Assembly (NCBI GenBank): GCA_946059305.1 | Contig: CAMGMU010000016.1 | Span: forward strand, 1-34,336 | Length of the DNA stretch: 34,336 nucleotides | Direction: 5' to 3' | Source of the DNA: an uncultured Bacteroidales bacterium | Lineage (GTDB): Bacteria; Bacteroidota; Bacteroidia; Bacteroidales; Paludibacteraceae | Shown: positions 9,832-29,105 of the stretch, in pieces | Numbering within the stretch: position 1 is the stretch's first letter | How the letters are laid out: every line of letters begins with the position of its first letter | Translations under genes and position numbers: made by a program | Notes under the pieces: model-generated | What the model was told of the DNA's origin: nothing | The model's input: only the letters and a program-made list of their open reading frames with translations | Database searches by the model: none

Positions 9832-10823
9832 CAATACAAAAAAAGAAAATATTAGTTACTGGGGGTGCAGGCTTTATAGGCTCAAACTTATGTGAGCATT
9901 TAATCGATCAAGGTTACTATGTACGTTGTCTGGATAATTTCTCCACAGGGCATATTAGAAATATCCAAAATCTAATTGATAATTTTCCTGACCAATTTGA
10001 ATTGATTGAAGGTGATATTCGCAATTATGAGACTTGCCTGAAGGCAACAAAGGATATAGATATCATCCTTCATGAAGCAGCATTGGGTAGTATACCTCGA
10101 AGCATAAATGATCCTATTACGACAAATGATGTAAATGTAAATGGATTCTTGAATATGTTGGTGTCTGCACGAGACTCCGGAGTCAAAAGGTTTATCTTTG
10201 CGACAAGCAGCTCCGTGTATGGTGATAGCCAGGTGCTACCCAAGTCAGAGGATAATATAGGACATCCCTTATCTCCTTACGCTCTTACTAAGTATGTGGA
10301 TGAGCTTTATGCGGAGGTATTCGCTAAACTTTATGGTATTGAATATATTGGTCTTCGATATTTTAATGTGTTTGGCAGAAATCAAGACCCAAATAGTGTG
10401 TATGCCGCCGTCATCCCTCTGTTTATTAAGCAGTACATCGCACATAAACAACCTGTCATCAATGGCGATGGTCAGCATTCGAGAGACTTTACTTATATTG
10501 ACAATGTTGTCCAAATGAATATGTTGGCCATTGAAACTCAATCTCCTGATGCAATAAATAGAATCTATAATACAGCAGCTTCTGAGAGAACATCAGTTAA
10601 TGATTTGAGTATAATGATTAAGGAAGCATTGTCAAACTTTGATGCCTCGATAGCTGACATAGAACCAGTTCATGGTTCAGATCGGCCAGGAGATATTCCC
10701 CACTCGTATGCAAGTATTGAACTTGCGCGAGAATATCTGGGCTATTCGCCATATATATCTTTCAAAGAAGGTCTAAGAAAGACAGTTGAATGGTATTGGA
10801 GTATATCGAAAAATATACTCTAA
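9828..10823 (+). CDS. NAD-dependent sugar epimerase/dehydratase (UDP-hexose 4-epimerase-like)
   Basis: TGGAGFIGSNLCEHL, HEAALGSIPRS, YALTKYVDELYAEVF, DFTYIDNVVQ. Confidence 0.9.
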   Translation: MTIQKKKILVTGGAGFIGSNLCEHLIDQGYYVRCLDNFSTGHIRNIQNLIDNFPDQFELIEGDIRNYETCLKATKDIDIILHEAALGSIPRSINDPITTNDVNVNGFLNMLVSARDSGVKRFIFATSSSVYGDSQVLPKSEDNIGHPLSPYALTKYVDELYAEVFAKLYGIEYIGLRYFNVFGRNQDPNSVYAAVIPLFIKQYIAHKQPVINGDGQHSRDFTYIDNVVQMNMLAIETQSPDAINRIYNTAASERTSVNDLSIMIKEALSNFDASIADIEPVHGSDRPGDIPHSYASIELAREYLGYSPYISFKEGLRKTVEWYWSISKNIL

Positions 10824-10836
10824 AAACAATTATCCT

Positions 10837-12297
10837 ATGAATGATTTAACCATATATCCCACCGACCAGCCGTTAGTACAGTTTCTAACTCCGTCTGAAT
10901 TACTCGGAATGTTCACCTCCTATTTGTCCCAACAGGAGGCGAACCGACAGGTTATATTCTTGAAGGGCATATACCTTAAAAACCCTAAGCATAATCCCCA
11001 ATGGCAATCCCGTTATGATGTGCTTCGCGATGAGTCCAACCAAACGGAGATAACTCTTCAAATACCTCTTCGTCTTGCCGATAATTTGAAGGACGGAAGT
11101 CTTGTCACTGTATGTGGTGTTCTGGGCCGTCGTGTGCAAATCAATAGCCAAATCCAGATTATGCTCGTTATAAGTCGTATTGAGGTGGTGCAAGACCAGG
11201 CTATTGATGAGGACGAAATGCGCCGTATCGAACTTCGCCGCATTAAAGCATCTGCTGGATTTCGGAATGTAGATACTATTTTGGAGAATTGTTTGTATAA
11301 CGATCAGCGGCCACGTATTGCACTAATCTTTGCTCAAGGCTCCATCACCGATTCCGACTTCAAAGCCGGTGTGGAGGCCGCTCGCGCCAGCATAGATTTT
11401 GATGAGTACCGTGCAACTTTCTCACGCACTGACGAACTAATCAAGGTACTTGATGAGATCGACACTGATTCTTACGAAGCTGTGGCTATCGTGCGTGGTG
11501 GCGGTGCAGGTTTAGAGGTGCTCGATGCAATGCCTTTATTGGAGCGTATCGTGAAACTCAACACTCCACTTATTGCTGCTGTTGGTCACCCCGACGAGAA
11601 GATTTTCTTTAAGCTGTTGGTGGATAAAGAGGTAGCTGTTCCGAATGATCTTGGTCACTATTTCAAAAATATGGTGGAGTCCGTTACTGAACAGAAAACA
11701 CGTTCGCGTGCCCAACTGACAGAGAAAATCAAGAAGCAGTTCCAAGAACAGCTCGAAGCCGGACAAAAACAGAACAAAGAGTTACAGGAGAAACTCACGG
11801 CTCTTACCAAGACGCAGGAGGAATCCACCAAGAAACAGGCTGAGGTTGCTAAATTGCATGATGAGCAAGTAAAGGCTGCTCACAAGCAAAACGAGGAACT
11901 TCAGAAGCAACTCAAAACGATTACTGAGGAGCAGTCCAAGAAGCAGGCTGAGATGGTGAAACTGCATGAGGAACAGGTTAAGGCAGCTAATAAGCAGAAC
12001 GAAGAACTTCAAAAGCAGTTGATGACCATCTCTGAGCAGAATGAGCAGCAAACGAAGAAGTTCAACGAGAGTCTCAAAGCTATCCAAGAGACGAATGGTA
12101 ACCTGCAAAAGTCTATAGAAAAGGCTAACGCTCAAAGCCAAGAATCCCTGAAGCAATTGAACCAGTCTAAAGACCAGGTTCTCGAACTCCAGCGCAAATT
12201 GGATGCCGCTCAAAAACCATCTTCTAATACAGCGCTCTACGCTTGCATTGGAGTAATCGTTATTTTACTTATTATTATTTTCGCCTTGCTTGCTTAA
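10837..12297 (+). CDS. ExoVII large-subunit (XseA)-like protein with coiled-coil and C-terminal transmembrane anchor
   Basis: OB-like N-terminus, AIVRGGGAGLEVLD and PLIAAVGHPDEK match the XseA 'RGGGS..DL' and 'PVisavGHE.D' blocks; then a long K/E/Q coiled coil and a terminal YACIGVIVILLIIIFALLA helix. Confidence 0.75.
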   Translation: MNDLTIYPTDQPLVQFLTPSELLGMFTSYLSQQEANRQVIFLKGIYLKNPKHNPQWQSRYDVLRDESNQTEITLQIPLRLADNLKDGSLVTVCGVLGRRVQINSQIQIMLVISRIEVVQDQAIDEDEMRRIELRRIKASAGFRNVDTILENCLYNDQRPRIALIFAQGSITDSDFKAGVEAARASIDFDEYRATFSRTDELIKVLDEIDTDSYEAVAIVRGGGAGLEVLDAMPLLERIVKLNTPLIAAVGHPDEKIFFKLLVDKEVAVPNDLGHYFKNMVESVTEQKTRSRAQLTEKIKKQFQEQLEAGQKQNKELQEKLTALTKTQEESTKKQAEVAKLHDEQVKAAHKQNEELQKQLKTITEEQSKKQAEMVKLHEEQVKAANKQNEELQKQLMTISEQNEQQTKKFNESLKAIQETNGNLQKSIEKANAQSQESLKQLNQSKDQVLELQRKLDAAQKPSSNTALYACIGVIVILLIIIFALLA

Positions 12298-12354
12298 TTC
12301 CCAATGGAATTTTAGTAATATGTATGGTTATTATCTAAAGTTATAAACATCTTT

Positions 12355-12702
12355 ATGAATATAGAATCAGTACTCAGTCATGACCAATTGGTCGACATCT
12401 ATGTTGAAGCATGGAATACATTAAATTCCGATTTATTAAAACCAGTGTTGGACAACAATTTTAGGTATGGATCTATGTGGGTTTTGTCTGATCTTGTTGG
12501 TAAACAAGCCTATTTGGATTACATTAAGGGTAAGTTTGAAGCAATCAAATCTTCTCACAGCATAGTAAAGGCTCAAAAAGGCATATCCCCTCAGACTGGT
12601 CTTTCGCGTGTTGAATTGCTTCAAGATGGACATAGAGGTGCCAAGATTGACGTAAAGTCTGATAATGGTGTGATGACCTCTGCGTATATGCATGATCTTT
12701 AA
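12355..12702 (+). CDS. NTF2/SnoaL-like small protein
   Basis: IYVEAWNTLNSDLLKPVLDNNFRYGSMWVLSDLVGKQAYLDYIKGKFEAI pattern. Confidence 0.5.
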   Translation: MNIESVLSHDQLVDIYVEAWNTLNSDLLKPVLDNNFRYGSMWVLSDLVGKQAYLDYIKGKFEAIKSSHSIVKAQKGISPQTGLSRVELLQDGHRGAKIDVKSDNGVMTSAYMHDL

Positions 12703-12711
12703 AGCGGTAAA

Positions 12712-13623
12712 ATGATGAATAATATTCATTCTTTGTTTGTACAGCATTGGCATAATTCGCATGCTAATCGCAAAGTGGAAGCACCATCAGGTATGCCATG
12801 GCTATGTTCACAGATAGATCTTGGGCTGAACGTTATTGCCTCTCGTCCAGGTATGGGTTCTACAACTATGGCTGTATCTTTGGCGTCGGAGTTGGCATTA
12901 GCAGGGAAGAGAGTGTTGTACATGGCTTTCCCCAGCCAAGGAGCGGACAAAATTTTTGTTCGCCAATTTGGCCTTCATATGAATATCCCATGGGAATGTC
13001 AACTACCATCTGAGAATAAATTATGGGAGCAAAATCTACCCTTATTGGAAAATATCAAGTTATTTTACAATCAATTACTCTATTGTTGTTCTGACTATAT
13101 TGAAATTCGGGAGAAACTTAGAAATTGTGTTAGAGAACAACATTTAGACTATATCTTTATTGACTGCATTCAAGAAATCACTATAGATAAAGAGTTATAT
13201 AAAATTAGCGTCGTTGACTATATCTGTTCTGAACTTCGGGCTCTGTCATACGAATTAAATGTCCCAATTGTAGCTACTTCTCAATTAAACCGAAATCCCG
13301 AACATCGTTGTGGAGTTGAGGGCAAGATCCCCCAATTAGGAGACTTTAAAGGTGGAAATGTAGATCAATATGCTCGATTAGTGTATTTCCCATTTCGTCC
13401 TGAGTATTATCGTGTAACTTGTGATTATGACGGTAAATCATTGAAGGATATTGTGAATGTGGTTGTGGAAAAGAATGATGATGGGAATGTCGGTGAAGTT
13501 AGGCTAAAATATGACCGTGAGCACTTGCGATTCAGCTCGGATAAATCATTTGCTGAATTTGTAGATGGGGTGAAATTTTCTAAATCAGCCCCTCTCCCTC
13601 ATACGGTGGATATGCCCTTTTAA
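12712..13623 (+). CDS. DnaB C-terminal-like RecA-fold ATPase with altered Walker A
   Basis: GLNVIASRPGMGSTTMAVSLASELA, LDYIFIDCIQEI, VPIVATSQLNRNPEHR, QLGDFKGGNVDQYARLVYFPFRPEYY. Confidence 0.8.
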   Translation: MMNNIHSLFVQHWHNSHANRKVEAPSGMPWLCSQIDLGLNVIASRPGMGSTTMAVSLASELALAGKRVLYMAFPSQGADKIFVRQFGLHMNIPWECQLPSENKLWEQNLPLLENIKLFYNQLLYCCSDYIEIREKLRNCVREQHLDYIFIDCIQEITIDKELYKISVVDYICSELRALSYELNVPIVATSQLNRNPEHRCGVEGKIPQLGDFKGGNVDQYARLVYFPFRPEYYRVTCDYDGKSLKDIVNVVVEKNDDGNVGEVRLKYDREHLRFSSDKSFAEFVDGVKFSKSAPLPHTVDMPF

Positions 13624-13723
13624 TTGAGGTAATATTGAGACTGAAGAATAATATGGTCACTATTATAAACAATTCTCAGACCCTTAAATATCACGTGAAA
13701 TTACTGCCGAACTTTTTAAGTAA

Positions 13724-15151
13724 ATGTTGTCGATGGAAGAACTTAAACATAGGGTAGAGCTGCTGAATCGCCTTTGTGATTTAGCAAAAGGAAATTTCTC
13801 CAAGTCTGACTACTTGGAAGCACAAATTCTTTTGGCAGGTCTTAATGAAATTCAAAGGGATAAAGTAATAGCCTATTACGAGGAGCGTCAATGGGATAAT
13901 TGTTACTTTGTTAAAAGGGTTATGGATATGCAATTGCCCGAAGTTGATTATTCGAAGAAGGTCGACATCAATACGCCAGTTGTTGATCTATTGGATAATT
14001 TTCAAAATCGAAAGAGCAAGAAGGTGGTTATATCTCGGCATGAGCTGCTTCGTCGATATGACTATCTGGACTCTACTGACCAATTGACTTTTCGGTTAGC
14101 TCTTTTGAATAGTCCGTCTATGGCAGACAATATTCAAGGTTGTAAATATGCCATGGAAAGGTGGTCTGGCGAAGAACTCCCTCTTGTTGAACAAGTTTGG
14201 CATAAGGCTTACACCGATAAAAAATATGACCTATGGTATTGGTCCGGTCGTTTATTGCTTCGCCATGCATCTACTGAGTTCCTTTTGGAATACCAGTATG
14301 GCCTTACTCATCTCCGTTCCGAGGTTGTAAGTGCCTTGTACTATTACCTTTCATTACGCCTTTGTAAAGAGCCCTCTTTCTCTTTAAATAAGGAAAAACT
14401 GCGTATAGGCGATTATTATCGCATTTTATTTCAGGCTGACATGCTGTTCAATGAATGTGAATGGTTGGAAGACTTTTTCCGTGCTGTAGCCGAAATCTAT
14501 ATCTTTAGTGCGCATCATTTCGAGCGGCGTAATGTTTTATCTGCTGAGATTACCCCCGAGGTAGCTCGTAAATATACAAAGGCTGATGAATTTGTTCCGG
14601 AGGCATTTCGCTTTAGAGACCAACCCCGAAATAAAGTATCTCTTTCTATGATTCCGACCATCCGTCGTCTACTTCTATATGGTTCTGTTATGGGATGTGA
14701 GCGAATAGGCTATGTTTTGGACTATTTGCACGATGCTGAGGAGCATATGATAGAAGAGGCAAAAGTGTGCTCAGGTCCTGACTTTTATTATTGGCCGAGT
14801 AGTTGGTCTAGGGAACAATGGCTTTATGTTAAAAGTAAGATAGTTATACCTTGTGTGGAACCTTTGAAGACTTGTTGCCCTGAACGTTTTAAATACTGTT
14901 TTGACGAGAGTATCAAAGAATATGAGGAGTGGCTTGCGCCCTATGTTGAACTGGCCGAACTTGGTGGCTACACTGATGTAGAACCTGTTTATAGAGATGG
15001 AGAGTCTTATGACGTGGTTCCACCTATTAATGATTTTGATTGGGACACGGCTTTTGGTACATTTCCTTCTAAACTTGATAAATCTCCAGAATTTCAGCAA
15101 CTCAAAGATTCTCTTGGTTTAGAGCCTGATTATATTGATGCACCATTTTAA
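13724..15151 (+). CDS. Hypothetical protein, 475 aa
   Basis: Long ORF, no family recognised; followed by a terminator. Confidence 0.75.
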   Translation: MLSMEELKHRVELLNRLCDLAKGNFSKSDYLEAQILLAGLNEIQRDKVIAYYEERQWDNCYFVKRVMDMQLPEVDYSKKVDINTPVVDLLDNFQNRKSKKVVISRHELLRRYDYLDSTDQLTFRLALLNSPSMADNIQGCKYAMERWSGEELPLVEQVWHKAYTDKKYDLWYWSGRLLLRHASTEFLLEYQYGLTHLRSEVVSALYYYLSLRLCKEPSFSLNKEKLRIGDYYRILFQADMLFNECEWLEDFFRAVAEIYIFSAHHFERRNVLSAEITPEVARKYTKADEFVPEAFRFRDQPRNKVSLSMIPTIRRLLLYGSVMGCERIGYVLDYLHDAEEHMIEEAKVCSGPDFYYWPSSWSREQWLYVKSKIVIPCVEPLKTCCPERFKYCFDESIKEYEEWLAPYVELAELGGYTDVEPVYRDGESYDVVPPINDFDWDTAFGTFPSKLDKSPEFQQLKDSLGLEPDYIDAPF

Positions 15152-15162
15152 ACAAATTTTTT

Positions 15163-15192
15163 AGCCCTGACTAACGTTGGGGCTTTCTTTTT
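15163..15192 (+). terminator. Rho-independent terminator
   Basis: AGCCC-(12 nt)-GGGCT followed by TTCTTTTT. Confidence 0.7.
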
Positions 15193-15716
15193 ACCCTCTG
15201 CCTTGGCAGACCGCAGTTGCCACTTGTTTCCATCACCGCCACGGCGTGCGCCATCTGGACATCGGTGGAATCCATTGCCTCCGTCCATGTCATACTTGTA
15301 GAGATAACCTCACTCCTTTGGTGACTCGTGCCCGTGGCACTCCCGGAACATGGAGCTCCGTCCTCATGCTTTGGCTGCTTGGCCGTCATCCTTAACGGCT
15401 GTACCTATAGCCGTTCTCTTATCTTGCCGCTTTCTATCCCTATACTTGCTCGGGCTCCTAATCTTGGGAGTCCGGGCTTGCTTCGCGTAGAGTAGGGCTC
15501 GCCTCTCCCCTCCTCTTCCTGTCGAACGCAGGCGCAGCAGCTGTTACTACCGCTCGTTCTGCGTACTTCTGCCGTCGGTACTGAAGCAGTTGTTTCTATT
15601 CTCGGTCTTGCTCTGGTTGTTTCCTGATTCAGCCATAGCAACTCGCTATAGTCATTCGTTACTTTTGTGGCATGTTCTTTTGGTTATACACATTGTTCCT
15701 GAGATTTTGATGTTCC

Positions 15717-15880
15717 TTTTAGCAATGCAAAGTTAGTTGGTTTACGCTGTATGGCAAGGCTATACAAGTGGCTGGCAAAAATCTTCCTTCCGGACGTGCC
15801 GGAAGAGTATTGTTTGCCGCCATCCTTGCTTTTGACATCGTCGGTCACCCCGCTGCGCTAACTGATAAAGCATTGTAAAA
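15717..15880 (+). promoter_or_regulatory. Structured leader/repeat element, copy A, upstream of ardA
   Basis: TTTTAgCAATGC..AGTTAG (left) can pair with CTAACT..GCATTGTAAAA (right); internal CTTCCGG-ACGTG-CCGGAAG hairpin; near-identical arms in copy B. Confidence 0.75.
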
Positions 15881-15925
15881 GAAACAAATCTCAAACAAAT
15901 GTATAATTCCAAAAACATCAGAAGT

Positions 15926-16492
15926 ATGAAAACAATGTATCGCGAACCGCTTACGGCTGAGGAAATCAACCTCCACAAGAACAATTACGAGAACAAAACC
16001 CCTGCCGTGTATATCGGTACCTATGGCAAGTACAACGAGGGCAGTTTATTTGGCTGCTGGGTAGATATAACTACCTTCGATAGCTACGAGGAACTCTTGG
16101 AGTTTGGCGAGCGCCTCCACGCTGATGAAGCAGATCCCGAACTCATGTTCCAGGATTACGAGTGTTTCCCACGCGAGTATTACGGGGAAAGCCACTTGGA
16201 TTTCGAGGAAATCAAGGCTTGGTATAATCTCGATTCGGATGAGCAAGAGGCCTTCGAAGCCTACATCGAGTATGAGGGCAAGTCTGCTTCCATCGAGAAG
16301 TTCCAAGAGGCCTATTCCGGTCACTTCGATACACCGGAGGAGTTTGCCGAGGCTCTCTACTACAATACCGGTATGATGGAAGGAGTACCCGAGTGGGTCA
16401 TGGGGTCCATCGATTGGTCGTCCATCTGGCGCAATCTCCGCTGTGCCGGTGATTATTGGGAGAACAAGGGCTACTATTTCGCTTCCTGCTAA
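15926..16492 (+). CDS. ardA: ArdA-like antirestriction protein
   Basis: PAVYIGTYGKYNEGSLFGCWVDI..., FGERLHADEADPELMFQDYECFPREYYGE; strongly acidic. Confidence 0.9.
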   Translation: MKTMYREPLTAEEINLHKNNYENKTPAVYIGTYGKYNEGSLFGCWVDITTFDSYEELLEFGERLHADEADPELMFQDYECFPREYYGESHLDFEEIKAWYNLDSDEQEAFEAYIEYEGKSASIEKFQEAYSGHFDTPEEFAEALYYNTGMMEGVPEWVMGSIDWSSIWRNLRCAGDYWENKGYYFASC

Positions 16493-16935: not shown

Positions 16936-16966
16936 TTGCATATTTCAGATTTTTTTTGTAACTTTG
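16936..16966 (+). promoter_or_regulatory. Bacteroidetes-type promoter
   Basis: TTG, 20 nt spacer, TAACTTTG; upstream of 17006. Confidence 0.7.
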
Positions 16967-17005
16967 CATCGCTTTTTAAATGAAACCTAACTTTTAAATC
17001 AAACT

Positions 17006-17554
17006 ATGACGGACCATTTACTCTATCTGTCTCTGCCGCCGTACCTTGCTCAATGGTATGCTGACGAGTGCAGGCGAAACGAACAAGCTCGAAGCGACAC
17101 GTACGCTCCAGAGCCCTATCGTTTCCCTCAACCGATTCAGCCCATTCGAGGCTCTCTCGAATCCGGCATTTTGGAGTTGTTCTTAACCAAGCAGCCAGCT
17201 GCTGTTCCACAAGATTTCAAAGAAGGCGCGAATATCGTATTGGCGATTCCTTCGTTCCGAAATCGTGACCCACGTATCTATAACTACTTGCGGCCCTCAG
17301 CGCGCGAAATGCTCCAAGCCGCTATACATACTCGTTTTCAAGTGAAACTGTTTCAAGATATCCATCAATTGGTGGGTCTTGGTAAGGCTCGCAAAGATCT
17401 TACAATCATCGCTTGGATGGAGCAGCACGGTATTGAAGTGGACGATACCAACTACAATTCCGTCCTGAAGGTTTTCGATCGCGTACGGAATACGTATACA
17501 CAGTCCGAGAACCGCAAAATCAAGAAAGAGCGAAAAAAAGTTCAAAAACCGTAA
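17006..17554 (+). CDS. Hypothetical protein, first gene of the capsid unit
   Basis: 182-aa ORF directly downstream of a promoter. Confidence 0.65.
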   Translation: MTDHLLYLSLPPYLAQWYADECRRNEQARSDTYAPEPYRFPQPIQPIRGSLESGILELFLTKQPAAVPQDFKEGANIVLAIPSFRNRDPRIYNYLRPSAREMLQAAIHTRFQVKLFQDIHQLVGLGKARKDLTIIAWMEQHGIEVDDTNYNSVLKVFDRVRNTYTQSENRKIKKERKKVQKP

Positions 17555-18033: not shown

Positions 18034-18279
18034 AAGTAGTTAACCTAAACCTAATACTTGAAAAAATCTTTGATACTTCGATTGGCCGGTTCTTGCTCGG
18101 GAGAGTAGGGCCGGTTTGTTGTGAAAAAATGGTCTTTTCGCGCACGCGAAATAAGCAATAATTTTGTGGCAAATTTAAATCTTTGCTATGAACTATCGTG
18201 CCAACGAACGCAGACCAAGCTTGCTTGTGTATGCCGAGTGCAGCCGATAGTCTATAGGCAAAAAACCTTATTATTGACT

Positions 18280-19398
18280 ATGAAAAATTACCATCTTCAC
18301 TTGCGCGGAGTTGTCGGAGGATATGACTTCGACAGCCGCCATGTGCAGAATGTCCTCACTGCCAACAAGAATAAGCAGGTGGACGTTCTTATCGACTCGC
18401 TCGGTGGCTCAGTGGCTACCGCTCTCACTATTGCTTCTGCTTTCCGCGATCATGGCGATGTGCATGTGCATTTCGTGGGCATGAACGCGTCAGCGGCCAC
18501 CATCGCTTCCATGGGTGCCAAGCGCATCACCATGGATAGTTCTGCCATGTACCTCGTACACAAATGCTCCTCGGAGTTCTTCCAATGGGCATCGCTCAAT
18601 GCCGACCAGCTGGAGCAGCAGATCGCTGATCTTACGCAGTTGAAAACCGACTTGGAGAAGATTGATGCCAACGTAGCCACCATGTATGCTAAACGTTGTG
18701 GCAAGGAACGCGACGCGCTCCTTCAACTGATGAAGGTTGGTGGTTGGCTGAACGCTACCGAGGCCAAAGACTGGGGCTTTGTTGATGAAATAACGGATGA
18801 AGCCGAAGACGCAGCGCCTGTGCTCACTGACAGTATTGCATCGGCTATGGCTGCTGTAGGTATGCCCATCCCGAATCTTCCTATTCAGTCGAGTTCGCAG
18901 TTCCAAAAGTTCCTTGCGGCTATGATAGAGTTCTTCCGTGGGGGCAAAGAAGCGCAAGCTAATCCACCCAAACAAACCATAACTATGAAGAAATTTCCAT
19001 TCCTTGCTGCGGTCTTGCTGATGGCAGACGCGCAGATTGCTCTCATAGAGGGCAAGTTCTCCCTGGATGAACAGCAGCTAGGCACGCTCGAAGATGCCCT
19101 CAAGGAGGCCAGCGAGAATGCCGAAGCACTCAAGGCTGCTCAAACCCGTGTTTCGGAGTTGGAGTCCCAACTCTTAGAAGCTAACACCAAAGCCGCCGAA
19201 GCAGCAACCCTGCGCCAGTCGGTAGAGGCTAAGAACCTCGAAATCCAGCAGCTCCAGGCTAAAGCGGAGGAGCTCGGTAAGCAGCCGGGTGACACTACAC
19301 AACAGGTGCATAACAATGCCGGTGAAGGGGTTGAGTCGCCGATGGATGACTTCTTCCAGCGGCTTCAGGCTGCCAAGGCTCTCTACGACATGGTCTGA
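18280..19398 (+). CDS. ClpP-like prohead protease with C-terminal scaffold-like coiled coil
   Basis: VDVLIDSLGGSVATALTIASAF, GMNASAATIASMGAKRITM, SSAMYLVHKCSS; then a long coiled coil; directly precedes the capsid gene. ATG 18280 preferred over 18121. Confidence 0.85.
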   Translation: MKNYHLHLRGVVGGYDFDSRHVQNVLTANKNKQVDVLIDSLGGSVATALTIASAFRDHGDVHVHFVGMNASAATIASMGAKRITMDSSAMYLVHKCSSEFFQWASLNADQLEQQIADLTQLKTDLEKIDANVATMYAKRCGKERDALLQLMKVGGWLNATEAKDWGFVDEITDEAEDAAPVLTDSIASAMAAVGMPIPNLPIQSSSQFQKFLAAMIEFFRGGKEAQANPPKQTITMKKFPFLAAVLLMADAQIALIEGKFSLDEQQLGTLEDALKEASENAEALKAAQTRVSELESQLLEANTKAAEAATLRQSVEAKNLEIQQLQAKAEELGKQPGDTTQQVHNNAGEGVESPMDDFFQRLQAAKALYDMV

Positions 19399-19443
19399 CC
19401 ATGTAACCATTAACATTAAACGCTAATCCTAAACTTATTCATT

Positions 19444-20412
19444 ATGGCAGGAAAACTTCAATTTACTCTGGATGATTTTCAGAAAGCCGCTCATCAGTTC
19501 CGCAAGGAACTCTTGATGCTGCCGATTATCGGCATTAACGACACGCTTCAATTTATGACTCCGCGTCCCGGTATCCGCTACAAGGAATCAGTAGGTGATA
19601 TGTCCGGTGCAGCACAGTTTGCACCCTACAAGCCGAGCCGAAGCGATGACTTCTACCTTAACCTCAACTTCCGCACGCTCGAAACCTTCTTTGGTAACGT
19701 GCATGCCAAGTTTGAACCTAACTCGGCTATCTCTACGCTCCTTGGTACGATCGCGGCACAAGCCAAGGGCGATGGTCAACTCACCGCTCCCACCGCCAAG
19801 CATGTGCTCTCGCTCATTGCCAAGTCATCGTCGGAGAATCTCAACAACGCCATTTGGAAGGGTAAACGTAACCCGAATGGCAACACGTCCATGGACCTCT
19901 TCGATGGCTTCGACACCATCACCGAGAAGGAGATTACCGAGGGCAATATCTCTTTGGAAAAGGGTAACTACCTCAAACTTACTGAGGCCGTCACCTCTGA
20001 AAATGCCTATGATCTGGCTAAGCAAATCCTCTATTCGCTCGACCCTCGTCTGCGTGCTCAGGATTGCTACCTGTTCTGCTCGCAGGACTTCGCCGACAAG
20101 TACAACGATGCCTACCAGCTTACGCACTCGGGCTACGTGTACAACTCGCAGTTCGATCAGGTGGCTGTAGAGGGGTCTAACAACCGTCTTCACATCATTC
20201 CGCTCTTCAACAAGGCAGATTCCAAGTTCATTCACGTCTGCCCCAAGTCGAACATGCTCGTTGGCTACGACCAGATGTCTGACACCGAGTCCGTTATGGT
20301 CAAGGAGTACGAACCGTTCATCCTCTCTTACATCGCTACGATGTTCTTCGGTGTGCAGTTTGAGTCTATCGACAAGCGTCGCTTCAAGGCCATCGAGCTT
20401 GTAGTTGAGTAA
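19444..20412 (+). CDS. Major capsid protein (putative HK97-fold)
   Basis: 322 aa, follows the protease/scaffold gene, MAGKLQFTLDDFQKAAHQFRKELLMLPIIG... and C-terminal FILSYIATMFFGVQFESIDKRRFKAIEL. Confidence 0.7.
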   Translation: MAGKLQFTLDDFQKAAHQFRKELLMLPIIGINDTLQFMTPRPGIRYKESVGDMSGAAQFAPYKPSRSDDFYLNLNFRTLETFFGNVHAKFEPNSAISTLLGTIAAQAKGDGQLTAPTAKHVLSLIAKSSSENLNNAIWKGKRNPNGNTSMDLFDGFDTITEKEITEGNISLEKGNYLKLTEAVTSENAYDLAKQILYSLDPRLRAQDCYLFCSQDFADKYNDAYQLTHSGYVYNSQFDQVAVEGSNNRLHIIPLFNKADSKFIHVCPKSNMLVGYDQMSDTESVMVKEYEPFILSYIATMFFGVQFESIDKRRFKAIELVVE

Positions 20413-20481
20413 CGCAATGATTGAGCGGTTAAACACCGCTCAACAGTATTAAATCTTTAAACCATTAAAACCTATTAAATT

Positions 20482-21234
20482 ATGCCTAATTGTTCTTCTT
20501 TACAGAAATCACTCGCGTGGTGCCAAGGCACTCCCGAGTTCCCCGGCATCAAGCGCCGTTTGTATTACATCTCAAAGGCGAGTATCGCCAAGTGGCCGAC
20601 GCTTCCCACCGATGCTGCTGGCCGTCCTACTGGGGCCGTCTATCAAGGTTCGTTTGTGCTGGTTGCCGATGCTAATTGGAAGTACATCGACATTCTCTCG
20701 GAAAAGTCGCAGCTTACTTCTGAAGCACAGGGTGAAGTACCATCGCAGACGCAGCTCAACAAGCTCACCGCTGTGCATCCGGCAGTAGGCCCTGATGCAA
20801 CTGCCGCATCGGCTTACCTTAACAACTCTGACAACGTCTTCATCATTGAGGATATGAAGGGTAAGTATCGTGTCGTTGGTTCGGATATGTGGAACACCAA
20901 AACCACCGTTAGCCAGGACCTTGGCCAAGGTGCTACAGGAACCACCTCCACTACCATCAATGTGGAAGCAACCGACGTTGTTCCAGCTCCCTTCTATGAA
21001 GGTGAAATCGTTACCGAAGATGGTACTATTGAAGCATCCGGTTCTCAGTCGGGTTCAACCAACACCGGTAGTGGCTCAACGAATACTGGCGGCAGCGGAA
21101 GTGGCTCTACCAATACTGGTAGTGGATCGTCTAACACTGGCGGCAGCGGAAGTGGCTCTACCATTACTGGTAGTGGATCGTCTAACACTGGCGGCAGCGG
21201 AAGTGTTCCAGATGACTTTCCGGGCTATGATTAA
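20482..21234 (+). CDS. Capsid-adjacent structural protein with Ser/Gly/Thr/Asn repeat tail
   Basis: Follows MCP; C-terminal repeats GGSGSGSTNTGSGSSNT. Confidence 0.6.
   Translation: MPNCSSLQKSLAWCQGTPEFPGIKRRLYYISKASIAKWPTLPTDAAGRPTGAVYQGSFVLVADANWKYIDILSEKSQLTSEAQGEVPSQTQLNKLTAVHPAVGPDATAASAYLNNSDNVFIIEDMKGKYRVVGSDMWNTKTTVSQDLGQGATGTTSTTINVEATDVVPAPFYEGEIVTEDGTIEASGSQSGSTNTGSGSTNTGGSGSGSTNTGSGSSNTGGSGSGSTITGSGSSNTGGSGSVPDDFPGYD
21088..21206 (+). repeat. 51-bp coding tandem repeat (17 aa)
   Basis: Copies start at 21088 and 21139 with a partial third from 21190 (GGSGSGSTNTGSGSSNT / GGSGSGSTITGSGSSNT / GGSGS). Confidence 0.85.
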
Positions 21235-21292
21235 TCCGTGTCTGAACTTCACCAATAGCTGCGGAATGGATTATTATTAATGTTCTTTACGA

Positions 21293-21928
21293 ATGGCACT
21301 ATTCGATTTATCTGAAGTTGGAATTGGCGAGGCAAACAGCTCCGCCAGTTCCTCTTTGTCTTCATCGCCTGCTCCCGTCAAAGACCTCTTTGCCGAAGAG
21401 TCTCGCAAGGGGTGGCATAAGCCCGATACGATGGAGGCCCGATGTGACCTTTCAATTGAGCGGCTGACTATGTCACCCCATGCTTCTGTGCCAGTTGTTT
21501 CCATTTGGAAAAAGTCCATCAAAGGACGTAAACTTACGGACATCAAAGCCGACGACTCGATGGTTGTCTATTTTGCTGACCATCTTACGCCCGTTATCCA
21601 GCGTGTGCTCGGTAACTACCTTAGAGAAGGGCATTGGGCTATCTGTGCCACCCCAAAGCGAAGGCATCTCACCCAAAACTTTGCATGCCGAATAGCTGCT
21701 GAGATAGGCCGCCGGCTGCAAATCCCCTACTACGAAGATGTGGCTATTGCTCACTCTCGTCAGCGTGTAGCGGTGGATTTCGATCTTGGCATCTTGCCCA
21801 AAGAGCCGAACCTCATCATCTTTGATGATTTTGTTACAACCGGCTCCACCATTGCCGCCATGAAAAGATTGCTCGACCCATTGGGCAAGAACCTCTTTTT
21901 TGTTGTCGGCATCAATAACAACATGTAA
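21293..21928 (+). CDS. Phosphoribosyltransferase-fold (ComF-like) protein
   Basis: NLIIFDDFVTTGSTIAAMKRL matches the PRPP-binding DDxxTTGST loop; CATPKRRHLTQNFACRIAAEIGRRL. Confidence 0.75.
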   Translation: MALFDLSEVGIGEANSSASSSLSSSPAPVKDLFAEESRKGWHKPDTMEARCDLSIERLTMSPHASVPVVSIWKKSIKGRKLTDIKADDSMVVYFADHLTPVIQRVLGNYLREGHWAICATPKRRHLTQNFACRIAAEIGRRLQIPYYEDVAIAHSRQRVAVDFDLGILPKEPNLIIFDDFVTTGSTIAAMKRLLDPLGKNLFFVVGINNNM

Positions 21929-21947
21929 TTTCTAAACTCTCTATACT

Positions 21948-22748
21948 ATGGATCACGAACTTACTAAAAAAATGCGCGCATGGCTCGAAACTCCTGAAGA
22001 GCAGCGCGACCTCGAAGAGGGCGCACTCTTCGTCCTCCAACTCTCCAATAACCGCATTATGTATCAGGGCTTTATGCGAAATCTCAAGCGTTCTGCCAAG
22101 ATGATTGCCTACCAACTGCAGAAGTATTACAACTTCCGTGTGAAGGACCTCACGCATCAGGAAGTGGCTGAGATGACTGCTCAGGTCAAGAAGATTGCAG
22201 AAAAGGATAATCTTCAGGCCATTCCAACCTCGTCTGAAAACGAATCCAAGGCAGCCGGAGATAATCCATCCCCGGAACTGGTGGCAGCGATTCGCAAAGG
22301 AAGGCGCGTTGACCACGATGCCTTGCCGGAGGATATTCAGGCACTCTATATTGAGAACCTCCATATCATCCAGCGTATGCGTAATCTCCATGCCAAATTG
22401 GAATTGCTGTCGGTGGAACATGCCACCTGTCCTGACTCTGAGCGCTATCCATTCTTGAAAGAGCTAATCGCGCTCGATAAGCAGTACCACGAGAATTGGA
22501 ACACCTATGACCACTACGTGCTCTCCGGTGCACCTGCTCCCGTGGAGGTGAAGATCGATGAGGAAGCAGCCTCTTTGCCGGAGCAAGTTTCTGAGACTGT
22601 GCCTGGTGAGACTTGCCCAGCTTCCGAGCCCGCTGATTCTGAGAAAGCGCCTGCAACTTCCGCGCCCGAGCCTGCTCCTGCTCCGGCAGAACCGAAGAAG
22701 AAAGGCAAGCGCCAATCCTCCACCTCTAAATCCACTAAAAAGGCATGA
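21948..22748 (+). CDS. Hypothetical protein with low-complexity Pro/Ala/Glu and Lys-rich tail
   Basis: 266-aa ORF in the operon; tail ASEPADSEKAPATSAPEPAPAPAEPKKKGKRQSSTSKSTKKA. Confidence 0.65.
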   Translation: MDHELTKKMRAWLETPEEQRDLEEGALFVLQLSNNRIMYQGFMRNLKRSAKMIAYQLQKYYNFRVKDLTHQEVAEMTAQVKKIAEKDNLQAIPTSSENESKAAGDNPSPELVAAIRKGRRVDHDALPEDIQALYIENLHIIQRMRNLHAKLELLSVEHATCPDSERYPFLKELIALDKQYHENWNTYDHYVLSGAPAPVEVKIDEEAASLPEQVSETVPGETCPASEPADSEKAPATSAPEPAPAPAEPKKKGKRQSSTSKSTKKA

Positions 22749-22823
22749 ATGGAATAGCCGCCCGATGTATGCTTGCATTGGCAACTCGGTGCAGCATTTC
22801 ATTCATAAATTACGTAGTAACGT

Positions 22824-23342
22824 ATGAAAAGAGGTGTAGGCATTGACGACCTTCTCAAGCCGCTGTCCAGCCACCCCACGCAGTGCTATCTCACGAATGT
22901 GCTGCAGGTGGCTGACGTGCTTGAGTGGGTATTGAAGCAGGTCGGCAAATCAACGGTTTGGCAGACATCCTTCTCTATCTCCGAGGAGTTCCTCCGTCGC
23001 CTTTACTTTATCGAAAAAAGTGGTCGTGTGAATACCATCCACCTTATACTCGATTTCAAGGCCACGCAGAAAACGCTCAAACTTTGGCCCTTTCTCACCA
23101 AGGTTATTGAGCATACCTACCTTGCGGACAATCATTCCAAAGTGATACTCATCCAATCCGACGCGGGTGATAAGGTCTCCATTATCACCTCACAGAACCT
23201 CACCCGAGGTAACCGTATGGAGGGTGCAGTGGTTTCAACCGATTCGCATGTGTTTGATACCTTCCATGCCTCGCTCGAGGATATTATCATTAATCACTCC
23301 GTGCCGCTCTCGGAGTTGTTCAAACAGAAGATTGCACAATGA
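22824..23342 (+). CDS. Phospholipase D-like superfamily protein
   Basis: NHSKVILIQSDAGDKVSIITSQNLTRGNRMEGAVVSTD resembles HxK....D...GSxN.T...E, with imperfect catalytic positions. Confidence 0.65.
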   Translation: MKRGVGIDDLLKPLSSHPTQCYLTNVLQVADVLEWVLKQVGKSTVWQTSFSISEEFLRRLYFIEKSGRVNTIHLILDFKATQKTLKLWPFLTKVIEHTYLADNHSKVILIQSDAGDKVSIITSQNLTRGNRMEGAVVSTDSHVFDTFHASLEDIIINHSVPLSELFKQKIAQ

Positions 23343-23584
23343 AGTCAGCCGCTCTACCTTACATTCATATTTCTACCGCCAAGCATCTGCTCGCGCAGCC
23401 TGACCCTGTTTCACTTGTCGTCTGGAAGCGCGATGGTTCGCTCGTTACCTACGAGAATGTTATCTCAATCTCTTATGATTTCTACAAGGGTACTCGGCAT
23501 ATCAAGTTCTTGCGTTCGGGCGAAATTCGCTTGGTGCGTGATGTGTGCATCTATAAGCTTAACGGTATGCAGGTGATTCTGTAG
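23339..23584 (+). CDS. Small hypothetical protein
   Basis: 81-aa ORF overlapping the previous stop by ATGA. Confidence 0.6.
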   Translation: MKSAALPYIHISTAKHLLAQPDPVSLVVWKRDGSLVTYENVISISYDFYKGTRHIKFLRSGEIRLVRDVCIYKLNGMQVIL

Positions 23585-23636
23585 TATCGTTGCTTTTTTT
23601 ATTAACTTTCATATTTTTCGAATCGTTTTACTTATA

Positions 23637-23666
23637 GCCGGATTATGATGTAGTCCGGCGTTTTTT
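23637..23666 (+). terminator. Rho-independent terminator
   Basis: GCCGGA-(11 nt)-TCCGGC followed by GTTTTTT. Confidence 0.85.
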
Positions 23667-23674
23667 GTCGTTCT

Positions 23675-23852
23675 TTTTAGCAATGCAAAGTTAGTTGGTT
23701 CTCTCCGTATGGCAAGGCCAAGGCGAGTTCCGTACCGCAAGCTAAGAAATCTTCCTTTTTCCTGTTGAGCCGGAAAAGCGTATTTCTTCCGGAAGTCTTG
23801 CTGTTCACGTCGTGGGTCACCCCGCTTCGCTAACTGATATAGCATTGTAAAA
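23675..23852 (+). promoter_or_regulatory. Structured leader/repeat element, copy B
   Basis: TTTTAgCAATGCAAAGTTAGTTGGTT...ATGGCAAGGC...GTCACCCCGCTtCGCTAACTGATATAGCATTGTAAAA, shared with copy A; the variable middle has its own pairing (AGAAAT/ATTTCT, TTTTCC/GGAAAA). Confidence 0.75.
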
Positions 23853-23912
23853 ATAACAAAAACACCGAAACATCATTCATCCTATAAGTTTAACATTCAA
23901 AATTTTACAGTT

Positions 23913-24248
23913 ATGAAAAAGCAAAATTCTAACGTACAGAACACCGCAGTTGAAACCGCAAAGCAGAGCGCACGTAAGCAGCTCAAGAGTCTCTCGAACA
24001 GCCTCATGGAACTCGCTAAGGCCGAAGGTCGTACGGATGTATCCATCAATGAGCTTTTGAGAGAAGCATATCAGCTCGTAGGTAAGCAGCTTAAAACCTT
24101 CGAAGCTTGGCAGGCCGAAGGCGCCAACATCCGCAGAGGTCAGCGCGCCTACCTCTTCTGGGGCGCACCTGTAGAAACAGAAGCCGGTTATCGCTACTGT
24201 CCAGTGAAATATCTCTTCTCACAAGAGCAAGTTCACGTAGCTCACTAA
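23913..24248 (+). CDS. ArdC N-terminal-like (ssDNA-binding) small protein, tentative
   Basis: TFEAWQAEGANIRRGQRAYLFWGAPV...CPVKYLFSQEQV resembles the ArdC N-terminal 'TF.qa...Gg.VrkGekg..v.fw' pattern; 111 aa, no protease domain. Confidence 0.5.
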   Translation: MKKQNSNVQNTAVETAKQSARKQLKSLSNSLMELAKAEGRTDVSINELLREAYQLVGKQLKTFEAWQAEGANIRRGQRAYLFWGAPVETEAGYRYCPVKYLFSQEQVHVAH

Positions 24249-24257
24249 TGTTTAATT

Positions 24258-24283
24258 GCCCCCGAGCCGTAAAGCAAGGGGGC
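24258..24283 (+). other. Intercistronic hairpin without U-tract
   Basis: GCCCCC-(14 nt)-GGGGGC just after the ArdC-like stop; same relative position as 16494-16515. Confidence 0.6.
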
Positions 24284-24299
24284 TTCAAATCTCCACATT

Positions 24300-24530
24300 A
24301 TGATAACGATTGAATCCATCTTACAGAACTGCACCGATGAGGAGCTCGATAAATTGTTTTCTGCATCGTGCACCATCACGGAAACCCTTCTTCTCAACGC
24401 GGATATGGATAGTACCCAATTGATGATTGAAAGCCGCGCGTATTTTTATGCTAACCTTGTTCAGATAAGCGCTTTTGATGAAATTCGCAATCGCGCGAAA
24501 GGCCTGAAAGAGCATAAGTATAACCATTAA
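24300..24530 (+). CDS. Small hypothetical protein, paralog of 16548-16784
   Basis: MITIESILQNCTDEELDKLFSASCTITETLLLNADMDSTQLMIE. Confidence 0.7.
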   Translation: MITIESILQNCTDEELDKLFSASCTITETLLLNADMDSTQLMIESRAYFYANLVQISAFDEIRNRAKGLKEHKYNH

Positions 24531-24543
24531 CACTTCACTAATT

Positions 24544-24714
24544 ATGGCTAAAGAAATTCGTTATTACCTGTGTAACCGTCATAGAGAAGTCCTCTACCAA
24601 TACGGCTGTTTCACCAGTCTCGAAGCGGCTGAAATCAAGTTCCGCACCATCCTTTACAACACTTCTGGCGATTGTCCTGTCTGTGGCATCAGAGCTTTTG
24701 AGGAAGAAGTGTAA
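24544..24714 (+). CDS. Small Cys-containing protein, possible zinc ribbon (56 aa; not in ORF track)
   Basis: MAKEIRYYLCNRHREVLYQYGCFTSLEAAEIKFRTILYNTSGDCPVCGIRAFEEEV. Confidence 0.6.
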   Translation: MAKEIRYYLCNRHREVLYQYGCFTSLEAAEIKFRTILYNTSGDCPVCGIRAFEEEV

Positions 24715-24723
24715 AGTACAACA

Positions 24724-24765
24724 AGCGCTCATCCCAATAGGGTGGGCGCTTCTGCTGTCTTTTCG
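24724..24765 (+). terminator. Terminator-like hairpin closing cassette B
   Basis: AGCGCTCATCCC-AATA-GGGTGGGCGCT followed by a T-rich but not continuous tract. Confidence 0.6.
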
Positions 24766-24782
24766 TGTGCGTGTGCGTAGCA

Positions 24783-24790
24783 GTAACTTT
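24783..24790 (+). promoter_or_regulatory. -7 box of a Bacteroidetes-type promoter upstream of the portal gene
   Basis: TAACTTTG; -33 not clear. Confidence 0.5.
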
Positions 24791-24813
24791 GCAGCATAAT
24801 CAGTAAAGTCGCT

Positions 24814-26133
24814 ATGCAAACCTATTTTACTCCCTCCGTTGAAACCATCCCTGGCGTTAATGCCAAGGTGGTTTTTACACCAGATACCACAACGCTCTTT
24901 AAGGAGTCTATTGATATTCCGAATCTTGTTATCAACGACAAGACATCCATCGTACCTTGGGGCGCAGACAACCTCATGCCTTACGACATCCTGAATAAGA
25001 TAGAGGCCGACGAAACGCTCACCACCTGCCAGACCTTCAATGCTGAAGTCTGTTATGGTGGTGGCATCAACTATTGTACGAGAGATGCAAGTAAGCAGAC
25101 GAAGCAGGAAGTGGAGGACTTCCTTTTTGAGAATAATATGGCAGATTACTACCTCGGTGCTTGCCTCGACTTCAAGCACTTTGGTTTTTGTGTATCACTT
25201 CTGATTCTCTCAAAGGATGGTACGCGCATCACGAATATTATCCGCAAAGAGGCTGCCAATTGTCGCTTCACGCCCGCTGACGGGCATGGCGTTTCCAAAG
25301 AGGTGCTCTTTGCTAATTGGGAATCTACGGATTTAAGTCAGATAGAGCATATGCCCTTGCTCTCCCTCATCAATCCGTGGCGCGATCTGCAATCACGAAT
25401 GCAGAACGGCGATAAGCATCGAAAGTTTGCTGTGGTTTCACGCATCCCTACAGCGCGCAACACGTATTATCCTATCCCTTATTACGCTTCGATTTTCAGG
25501 TCTCGCTGGTACGATATCAAGCAGCTGATTACAACGGCCAAGAAAGCCAAGCTCGAGAACTCGGCTCCCATTAAATATCAGATTGAGATTTCCGCTCGCT
25601 ATTGGGAGAAACTGTTTATCTCTAAGGGTATCACGTCCATTGAGGATAAACGCGTTGCTGTCAATGAATCCAAGCAGCAGATGATTGATTTCCTTACCCG
25701 CGCAGAGAACTCGGGCAAGGTGCTCTTTTCGGAGTTCTACCAAACGCCCGATGGCAAGGAGCAGCAGGAAGTTCGCATCACCACCATTGCCACCGGCAAA
25801 GAGGGTGGGGACTGGGAAACGGACATCCAAGAGGCTATCAACATCATGTGCTTCACCCTGCGCGTTCACTCTAATCTCGTAGGCTCCGTTCCGGGAAAAG
25901 CACAAACCAACAACTCCGGTTCTGACAAGCGCGAGCTGTACACCATCGCGCAGGCCCTACAGAAGCCATACCATGATATTCTTTTCATGCCGCATCGGAT
26001 AATTATCCGCTACAACGGATGGGATGGAGTGCATGTAGATTGTCCATTCATTCAGCTCACCACGCTCGACGAGCATCGTGATGCCAAACTTGTAACCACA
26101 AACCAAGACAACAATGATACTGATAACCAATGA
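24814..26133 (+). CDS. Phage portal protein
   Basis: 439 aa; VPWGADNLMPYDILNKIEADETLTTCQTFNAEVCYGGGI...; position in the packaging module. Confidence 0.75.
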   Translation: MQTYFTPSVETIPGVNAKVVFTPDTTTLFKESIDIPNLVINDKTSIVPWGADNLMPYDILNKIEADETLTTCQTFNAEVCYGGGINYCTRDASKQTKQEVEDFLFENNMADYYLGACLDFKHFGFCVSLLILSKDGTRITNIIRKEAANCRFTPADGHGVSKEVLFANWESTDLSQIEHMPLLSLINPWRDLQSRMQNGDKHRKFAVVSRIPTARNTYYPIPYYASIFRSRWYDIKQLITTAKKAKLENSAPIKYQIEISARYWEKLFISKGITSIEDKRVAVNESKQQMIDFLTRAENSGKVLFSEFYQTPDGKEQQEVRITTIATGKEGGDWETDIQEAINIMCFTLRVHSNLVGSVPGKAQTNNSGSDKRELYTIAQALQKPYHDILFMPHRIIIRYNGWDGVHVDCPFIQLTTLDEHRDAKLVTTNQDNNDTDNQ

Positions 26134-26953
26134 TGCGCAGCTGCGTTCGTATGTACCCAATGCGCTGGTCACCGTGACGGGTGAGATGTCTCTCTTCGAT
26201 AAGATGCGTACTGATTTGGCGCTTTCCGAGCAGTGGCTTACCATCCATTTTGTGGATGCTTCTCTTTTAGGAAAGATTGCCTTGGAGAAAGAACATAATG
26301 AAGCCGCAAACATATGCTGTCGTGCCGTCGTGGCCGACGCACTCCTTCGGGCTATTCCCTCGCTAGACCTCGTTCTTACCCCCAACGGCTTCGGTATCGT
26401 GTCCAACCAAAATGTCGCACCTGCATCCAAGGATCGTGTGGACCGTCTCCTTTCGAACCTTGAACTCGTTCGCGACCGCTCTCTGCAGCAGCTGCTCTAT
26501 CTGCTCCCCAAGGCGGCCACCTCGGAATGGCTTCAGTCGGAGGCGGGGAAGTATTTCGCTGCAACGCTCTTCCCATACCTCGACCTGCCATCGCTCCTTG
26601 GTTATACCGATAAACTGTGGGAACGGTATCAGCAGTATTGGGCACAACTGAAACTTATCGAAGCTGAACTCGCTGATAAGTTTATCTCTTCAGAGGTCTA
26701 TGCCCGATTGCGTCAACGCTTCATCGAGGACTCGTGCGACATCGTTGAACTCGACCTCGTGAATCGCCTGCGTGCCATCGAACTCGCTCTCCTCAAGGGG
26801 AAGCCGCTCGATATGCAGGCCCTTCATGCCATCGTAACCTATATCCGTAAGAATCCAGCGGATTTTCCAGAGTGGGTAGCTTCTGAAACTGCCACTCATT
26901 TTTCGGATCAATCGTTTCACAATTCTAAACAGTCCGGCGGTTACTGGTTTTAG
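26114..26953 (+). CDS. Phage structural protein (possibly DUF6712-like head-completion)
   Basis: 279 aa, overlaps portal end; composition resembles Bacteroidetes phage head-completion proteins (tentative). Confidence 0.55.
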   Translation: MILITNDAQLRSYVPNALVTVTGEMSLFDKMRTDLALSEQWLTIHFVDASLLGKIALEKEHNEAANICCRAVVADALLRAIPSLDLVLTPNGFGIVSNQNVAPASKDRVDRLLSNLELVRDRSLQQLLYLLPKAATSEWLQSEAGKYFAATLFPYLDLPSLLGYTDKLWERYQQYWAQLKLIEAELADKFISSEVYARLRQRFIEDSCDIVELDLVNRLRAIELALLKGKPLDMQALHAIVTYIRKNPADFPEWVASETATHFSDQSFHNSKQSGGYWF

Positions 26954-26959
26954 CCGCCA

Positions 26960-27682
26960 ATGATTATGAACTTAAATCTAACCGTGCCTACCTGTTGGCA
27001 GGAACTCAATCAAAAACAACTTCGTTATGTGTACTACTTGCTCGCAGAGGGCTACTCCAAAGAAGCCCTTCAAACGCATTGCCTCTGCCGGTGGTCCGGC
27101 CTCGAAATTCTTTGTCCGGAAGGAGATGGCTACAGCGTACGCCACAACTTCGCTCGCCATCATGTAACGGCTCTTCAAGTGGCAGAAGTATTATCGCACG
27201 TTGACTGGCTACTGCAACTTCCTTTTGTGCCGGTACGTCTCTCTGAGATTCAGGGCCACGCAGCTGCACGAGCCGACCTACAGGGCGTCAGCTTTGAGCA
27301 GTACCTCATCCTCGAAAACCTCTTCCAGGGCTATCTCGTCACCAAGAACCTTTCCTTGTTTGATGATACTACGGAAATCCTCTATGGTACGCAGCTCAAA
27401 CTGCTTCCGGAGGAGCAAGTGAGTGTCTTCTATTGGCTCTCATCTGTAAAACAAGTGTTTGCCCGCCGATGGAATCACTTCTTCAAACCCACGGGTGGGG
27501 AGCAGCATATGAATATGGAAGCTCATCTGCAGAACCTGATGGACACTCAGATTCGTGCGCTAACCAAAGGCGATATCACCAAGGAACCTGAGGTGCTCTC
27601 GATGGATGTGCATCGGGCGTTGACGGAACTTAATGCCCAAGCTAAAGATTACGAAGAACTCAAAAAATCTGCCAAATCATGA
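26960..27682 (+). CDS. Hypothetical phage protein
   Basis: 240-aa ORF in a tightly packed operon. Confidence 0.65.
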   Translation: MIMNLNLTVPTCWQELNQKQLRYVYYLLAEGYSKEALQTHCLCRWSGLEILCPEGDGYSVRHNFARHHVTALQVAEVLSHVDWLLQLPFVPVRLSEIQGHAAARADLQGVSFEQYLILENLFQGYLVTKNLSLFDDTTEILYGTQLKLLPEEQVSVFYWLSSVKQVFARRWNHFFKPTGGEQHMNMEAHLQNLMDTQIRALTKGDITKEPEVLSMDVHRALTELNAQAKDYEELKKSAKS

Positions 27683-28167
27683 ACTGGAACGCAACCGCTT
27701 TTTTCGAGAAACTGACGGAAACCAACCGCTTGGCACAGCAGGAGCATTTCCGCTTCTGCAGTGTCAGCGGATTGCAGGGGTTTGAGGAAGCGTTGGCCGC
27801 CATGGGCAGCACTACTGCATTTGTATGCGTAGCAGATAACTCTGATGGTTATACTGACATCAACAACTCGCCTCATACGCGTCGTATTAAAACCGTGTTC
27901 ATGGCAATGCGCCATGCACTCGATAGCCAAGATGCACGATTAGAGTGCATCTATACGATGCGGGAACTGTTTCGGCAGTTTATGTCGGTGCTTATTCTTG
28001 AGAAGACCAAGCTGCAGGAGGATAATATCTACCTCGACCCGCGAGTCCGTTTTACTGAGATACCTCAGTATTTTGCATCAGGATGCGCTTGCGCATACTT
28101 TCAGATAGCTGTTGATATTTATACCGATCTTCGTCTTAATCCGTCAGAGTGGTCATCCGCAAAATAA
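27679..28167 (+). CDS. Hypothetical phage protein
   Basis: 162-aa ORF, ATGA overlap with previous gene. Confidence 0.65.
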   Translation: MNWNATAFFEKLTETNRLAQQEHFRFCSVSGLQGFEEALAAMGSTTAFVCVADNSDGYTDINNSPHTRRIKTVFMAMRHALDSQDARLECIYTMRELFRQFMSVLILEKTKLQEDNIYLDPRVRFTEIPQYFASGCACAYFQIAVDIYTDLRLNPSEWSSAK

Positions 28168-28174
28168 TGTAACT

Positions 28175-28450
28175 ATGAATTATACCGTCGAACAACTCAA
28201 TATGATTGAGCAATATGCATCCATCTATCTCCCAATATCGGATATAGCCGTGATTTTGGAAATCACTCCGGAGCAACTCCGTGAGGATATCCATGACAGC
28301 CAAAATCCAGCCTCTTTCCACTACCGCAAAGGCAAGGCTCTCTCCAAGGTGCAGCTCCACCAGCAAGAGATGACGCTTGCCAAGGTGGGCTCACCGCTTG
28401 CTTTGCAGAATGCTCGCGATAACCTGCTCGCCATGGAGGATGATGAATAA
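28175..28450 (+). CDS. Small HTH-like protein, possible packaging accessory
   Basis: MNYTVEQLNMIEQYASIYLPISDIAVILEITPEQLREDI resembles an HTH. Confidence 0.55.
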   Translation: MNYTVEQLNMIEQYASIYLPISDIAVILEITPEQLREDIHDSQNPASFHYRKGKALSKVQLHQQEMTLAKVGSPLALQNARDNLLAMEDDE

Positions 28451-28470
28451 CATTAAACCAAACCTTAACT

Positions 28471-29103: not shown

Positions 29104-29105
29104 CT

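Follow-up and report, generated by a model that had tools for sequence, protein, structure and literature searches.

Two long imperfect hairpins, which lie 8 kb apart in the window (the whole stretch of DNA analysed, 34,336 nt, constituting an entire 34-kb contig of a 2.18-Mb Bacteroidales genome) and each stand directly upstream of a plus-strand gene, probably act as single-stranded DNA promoters. Judged from their sequence, each would be a functional analogue of the Frpo/ssi elements of conjugative plasmids, built on the consensus of sigma-ABfr, the housekeeping sigma factor of Bacteroidetes. The parts of the two copies, termed A and B, are:

15703–15890, minus (folding) strand: hairpin copy A (covariance-model match 15712–15886; the outer stem reaches about 15703/15890)
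15728–15735, minus strand: -7 box of copy A (TAACTTTG), on the 3′-arm side of an internal loop
15755–15757, minus strand: -33 TTG (CCTTGC) of copy A, 19 nt upstream of the -7 box, within a GCAAG/CTTGC helix
15858–15880, minus strand: 5′ arm (putative template arm) of copy A, plus-strand reading CTAACTGATAAAGCATTGTAAAA, lacking TAnnTTTG
15899–16492, plus strand: ardA, first gene downstream of copy A (PF07275, E 2.3e-21)
23662–23866 (outer limits approximate), minus (folding) strand: hairpin copy B (covariance-model match 23670–23858)
23686–23693, minus strand: -7 box TAACTTTG of copy B
23713–23715, minus strand: -33 TTG of copy B, 19 nt upstream of the -7 box
23913–24248, plus strand: gene of a 111-aa protein, first downstream of copy B

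A preliminary description of this DNA had reported conserved ends around a diverged middle, and alignment of the two copies over their whole length confirmed this. With copy A as query against the whole genome, copy B was found at 75% identity (E 8e-29), together with a third copy on contig C97. The paired arms that had been described are real and reach further out than claimed, pairing in copy A continuing to GATTT...AAATC, but the stem is imperfect: on the minus strand of copy A a 6x6 loop (TTTATC versus AACTTT) lies between GCATT and an inner AGTT/AACT helix, and it is in this loop that the -7 box is located. A conserved apical motif, AAAATACT..GGAAGATTTTT or TGGAGATTTTT, precedes the -33 box in all hairpins (minus strand, 15774–15818 and 23747–23800 in the window). 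Its conservation exceeds what pairing alone would require, and at a guess the AAAATACT..GGAAGATTTTT part might play a role like that of an UP element.

Both downstream genes had been taken for antirestriction-type genes, an assignment that stands for ardA, in which an in-frame ATG at 15926 offers an alternative start, but is only tentative for the gene after copy B. The 111-aa product of the latter matched ArdC-N in Pfam below threshold only (E 0.09; best relative E 0.009), had no match among solved structures and yielded a structure model (pLDDT 59) with no meaningful fold match. Its relatives follow hairpins and precede ardA in other genomes (L070 and L075), and the sequence weakly suggests an ArdC-like protein.

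Copies A and B belong to a family of hairpins of 150–215 nt. In named Bacteroidales MAGs from rumen and gut, a search with the left-arm pattern turned up 27 further stretches, of which 26 are true relatives, and it also matched an IMG/VR contig; one pattern match, L028, was set aside, as it resembles two divergent ordinary promoters. The exact left-arm pattern gave no match in viral contigs, and distant blastn searches with copy A gave none in phages and a single, spurious one in plasmids. Covariance model R1, built on the minus strand, found diverged copies within the genus and in three other families, and model R2, built from 17 diverse copies, matched in 64 of 395 Bacteroidales genomes and in 21 of 399 genomes drawn across the phylum, nearly all of the class Bacteroidia. 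Up to 11–13 copies occur per genome, several of them in one element. The homologues in Bacteroidales mobile elements that the preliminary description had asked about were found, in many cases ahead of ardA or other genes of establishment, and the proposed check against Rfam returned 0 matches for the window at gathering scores.

Selection on structure, proposed from the two copies alone, was borne out in the larger alignments. Among 17 diverse copies, in an alignment fitted to the model, 45 of 53 base pairs had changed on both sides and yet remained paired (25.4 ± 2.8 after shuffling), with such pairs in every helix; 90% of paired cells were standard pairs, and the covariation score was 0.509, compared with 0.155 for shuffled alignments and at most 0.112 in slid controls. 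A MAFFT alignment of 18 distinct copies, unfitted to any structure, retained 94.6% standard pairs among paired cells and 11 pairs changed on both sides (3.7 ± 1.3 shuffled). For hairpins below 70% identity over both arms, complementarity of the outer stems lay above the 95th percentile of shuffles in 36 of 37 cases. Stem sequences turn over completely while the promoter boxes stay.

The preliminary description had missed these boxes inside the arm. Of 44 dereplicated hairpins, 37 have TAnnTTTG at one fixed place in the 3′ arm of the minus strand, a recurrence that is partly circular among model matches because the -7 letters sit in the covariance model; the stem changes and the orientation relative to the relaxase are free of this circularity. 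The exact motif is absent from the remaining seven representatives, which are diverged hairpins. TTG lies 16–24 nt upstream of the motif in 35 of the 37 box-bearing representatives, and in the window TTG-N19-TAACTTTGC occurs twice, both times inside a hairpin, with 0.01 occurrences expected. The two boxes agree with the consensus for sigma-ABfr, -33 TTTG / -7 TAnnTTTG (as cited in PMC7366714), and we infer that this factor would recognise them. In the plus-strand right arm TAnnTTTG was found in none of the 44 representatives, and just to the right of the hairpin 62 of 63 distinct copies have no -7 box on the plus strand. Mean predicted pairing was 0.91–0.97 at the TTG, 0.38–0.66 over the -7 box and mostly 0.8–0.96 just downstream, so that the folded strand is predicted to be closed at -33, loosened at -7 and duplex ahead; one strand folds into a mimic of duplex DNA with correctly spaced host promoter boxes. 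An ordinary duplex promoter of the same Bacteroidetes type, TTTTTTTTGTAACTTTGC, was also observed at 16950–16973 of the window, before an ORF at 17006, and makes a useful duplex control within the same element.

The genes that follow the hairpins are varied. The 96 downstream proteins include 7 ArdA, 4 PcfK, 4 PcfJ and 4 DUF6943 proteins, besides HsdR, Dam methylase, ParB, RadC and one ArdC-N protein, in a set partly chosen to include known ArdA neighbours, so that the count is no test of enrichment. A close copy of one hairpin family is present at 55008–55188 of CTn214 from Bacteroides fragilis, a conjugative transposon of the CTnDOT/CTn341 type, where it precedes a minus-strand operon with PcfK, PcfJ and DUF3873. 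The transfer genes of CTn214 are annotated as follows:

22715–26406, minus strand: mobABC
from 26828, plus strand: ParA and tra genes

The ICE of genome G336 (L069, L078) is organised likewise, with several hairpins, and in both elements the hairpins lie beyond the tra operon and do not adjoin oriT, which counts against the promoter reading. The CTn214 paper mentions many inverted repeats as possible oriT sites (PMC10865816), and we found no description of the hairpin as a promoter. In an IME of genome G352 (L072:6870–9839) the hairpin has the mobilisation genes on one side and, directly after it, a type I restriction operon with hsdR first, so that defence, not anti-defence, cargo would be read first. 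Separately, an element of about 4.8 kb was observed in four copies in genome G132 (L165:9040–13880, L166, L167 and L073), with relatives in L168 and L169; it holds one hairpin, a 158-aa J-domain-like protein, two DUF6266-type proteins and a 150-aa protein, and no integrase or relaxase was seen in it.

Orientation was consistent rather than random. In 30 elements a PF03432 relaxase lies no more than 60 kb from a hairpin; the folding strand was opposite to the relaxase coding strand in 27 of them (p 8e-6), or for 42 of 46 when counted by hairpin, and 25 of 26 pairs of adjacent hairpins shared a strand. Across 20 relaxase–hairpin intervals about 75% of the coding DNA is oriented against the relaxase gene, which indicates that the rule does not arise from all genes running one way; such a share is what the tra operon of the annotated cases would lead one to expect. 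Three of the 30 elements break the rule, and hairpins oriented against it are found in the elements G067:C37, G333:C25, G147:C68 and G397:C11. Those of G333 and G147 are the same hairpin with the same downstream gene, and their elements may be of a different type. Relaxase genes usually enter last during transfer. If this general rule holds here, ICEs and IMEs would transfer the folding strand.

The minus strand is the strand that folds. Its dereplicated outer stems, scored symmetrically, contain 37 G-T and 12 A-C oppositions (p 5e-4; 65 and 19 without dereplication), a count that keeps some selection bias, as the covariance model permits wobbles and not A-C. The preliminary description had left the choice between RNA and folded single-stranded DNA open; wobble asymmetry, promoter boxes and orientation relative to the relaxase favour single-stranded DNA of the minus strand over a plus-strand RNA. 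A structured leader of the downstream gene, acting as a riboregulator or antiterminator, would account for the strong covariation and the position directly 5′ of genes, and the plus-strand RNA does fold well. Such a leader, however, predicts the reverse wobble asymmetry, leaves both the intact -33/-7 promoter on the minus-strand arm and the link to the relaxase strand unexplained, and has a plus-strand TAnnTTTG within 80 nt upstream in only 4 of 63 cases; we regard it as quite unlikely.

That the hairpins are single-strand origins, at which RNA polymerase would prime second-strand synthesis rather than transcribe a gene, is a reading we consider quite unlikely as a replacement for the promoter, even though the anatomy would be identical and the title of Masai and Arai 1997, as cited in PMC11541004, describes Frpo itself as serving both transcription and primer synthesis. 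The numbers of copies per genome and per element given above, and the placement of hairpins before gene blocks and reading towards them, fit promoters better. The two roles are not exclusive.

The folded minus strand, with a central bubble that recalls 6S RNA, might alternatively be a non-coding RNA, for example a 6S-like promoter mimic. We find this very unlikely: of 63 distinct hairpins, copy A alone has a minus-strand -7 box 5′ of the element, the window lacks an Rfam match, and the conserved letters are those of promoter DNA, which a mimic of the 6S type does not need. An ordinary duplex promoter reading leftward from the left arm, where the minus-strand -33/-7 promoter is indeed good, is highly improbable, as it would leave the covarying right arm unexplained and would run antisense into the upstream gene (L069 and L072 were inspected). 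Least credible of all is a small transposable element (MITE), which would explain inverted-repeat ends and a variable middle but not the compensatory changes across the whole stem and inner helices, the fixed orientation, the position before genes or, by eye, the lack of a duplicated target site at copies A and B.

As a single-stranded promoter the hairpin would work as follows. The minus strand, once single-stranded, would fold back into the long imperfect hairpin. Its 3′ arm would contribute the non-template strand, with TTG at -33 and TAnnTTTG at -7 for the housekeeping sigma factor of Bacteroidetes, and its 5′ arm the template. The -33 box and spacer would become duplex, the -7 box would lie in a pre-opened loop, and the duplex ahead would be provided by the outer stem. 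From a start close to the stem base, RNA polymerase would proceed outward along the 5′ arm into the gene at the right, which for copy A means that transcription from the folded strand would enter ardA. When the DNA is duplex, the coding strand of this arm offers no -7 box, and rightward transcription would be off; dependence on single-stranded DNA would follow from this arrangement. With the folding strand as the transferred strand of ICEs and IMEs, the genes would be read on entry, before second-strand synthesis.

The carrier in the window is phage-like and not an ICE. It had been considered as an ICE, and this was dropped when Pfam and PHROGs gave phage head genes, which occupy the right half of the window:

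at 18121: ClpP-type head protease
at 24814: portal-like gene
at 26114: DUF6712 gene
at 29106: terminase-like gene

In the window (18121–30749) and in L045/L046 the head protease, portal, DUF6712 and terminase genes were seen, a long tape-measure gene was not recognised among the ORFs, and these phage-like elements may be head-only satellites or truncated contigs. L046, an IMG/VR relative of the window element, additionally encodes a 1660-aa type ISP restriction-modification enzyme (10343–15325) alongside ArdA. No relaxase of families PF03432 and PF01076 was found in the genome of the window or in the tested genomes of its genus, and single-stranded DNA of the window element may come from the action of some other family of relaxases, from conjugation with a helper, from an intermediate of replication or from extruded cruciforms. 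That phage-like elements in which neither relaxase family was found also use single-strand promoters is a tentative idea, and to us a somewhat doubtful one. If they do, they would pass through a single-stranded form by an undescribed route of transfer or replication, or else cruciform extrusion, or gaps in the lagging strand during replication, would let the hairpin promoter fire.

Single-strand promoters are known from E. coli conjugative plasmids. In the Frpo/ssi elements of F and ColIb-P9 the single strand of transferred DNA folds so that promoter boxes are restored, and early genes, ssb, psiB and ardA among them, are expressed from it; F carries two similar Frpo copies about 5 kb apart, and conversion to duplex switches its early genes off (PMC9849209, PMC11541004). 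The window hairpins likewise form two similar copies, 8 kb apart, one of them before ardA. However, where Frpo rebuilds -35 TTGACA / -10 TATAAT, the hairpins here present -33 TTG / -7 TAnnTTTG, and the combination of TTGACA and TATAAT in the fold, by which Frpo/ssi elements were searched for (PMC11541004), does not occur in them. They further differ in the symmetric loop that holds the -7 box, in the conserved apical element, in their Bacteroidota hosts and in having some carriers that are phage-like rather than conjugative. Our comparison suggests that the hairpins work like Frpo by logic and are not members by sequence, and we claim no homology. Promoters formed by DNA hairpins are also used by the virion RNA polymerase of phage N4; those hairpins are short and read by N4's own polymerase, whereas here a fold of 150–215 nt carries host sigma-factor boxes.

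Single-strand promoters have been worked out in enterobacterial plasmids, and a published survey of them, based on known Frpo/ssi sequences and TTGACA/TATAAT boxes, contains no word beginning with 'Bacteroid' in its main text (PMC11541004). In a literature search that had bioRxiv and most subscription journals outside its reach, we found no paper on such promoters in Bacteroidota, where, as far as we found, they are apparently undescribed. An alignment of the diverged copies is at hand for working out the requirements of RNA polymerase in a folded promoter. If the proposal is true, Bacteroidota either evolved or retained this solution, using a promoter consensus of their own, and sequence alone would reveal which strand an element transfers. 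The hairpins would then mark the genes switched on first in a new host, and would point to anti-defence genes not yet known in the ICEs by which resistance spreads through gut bacteria.
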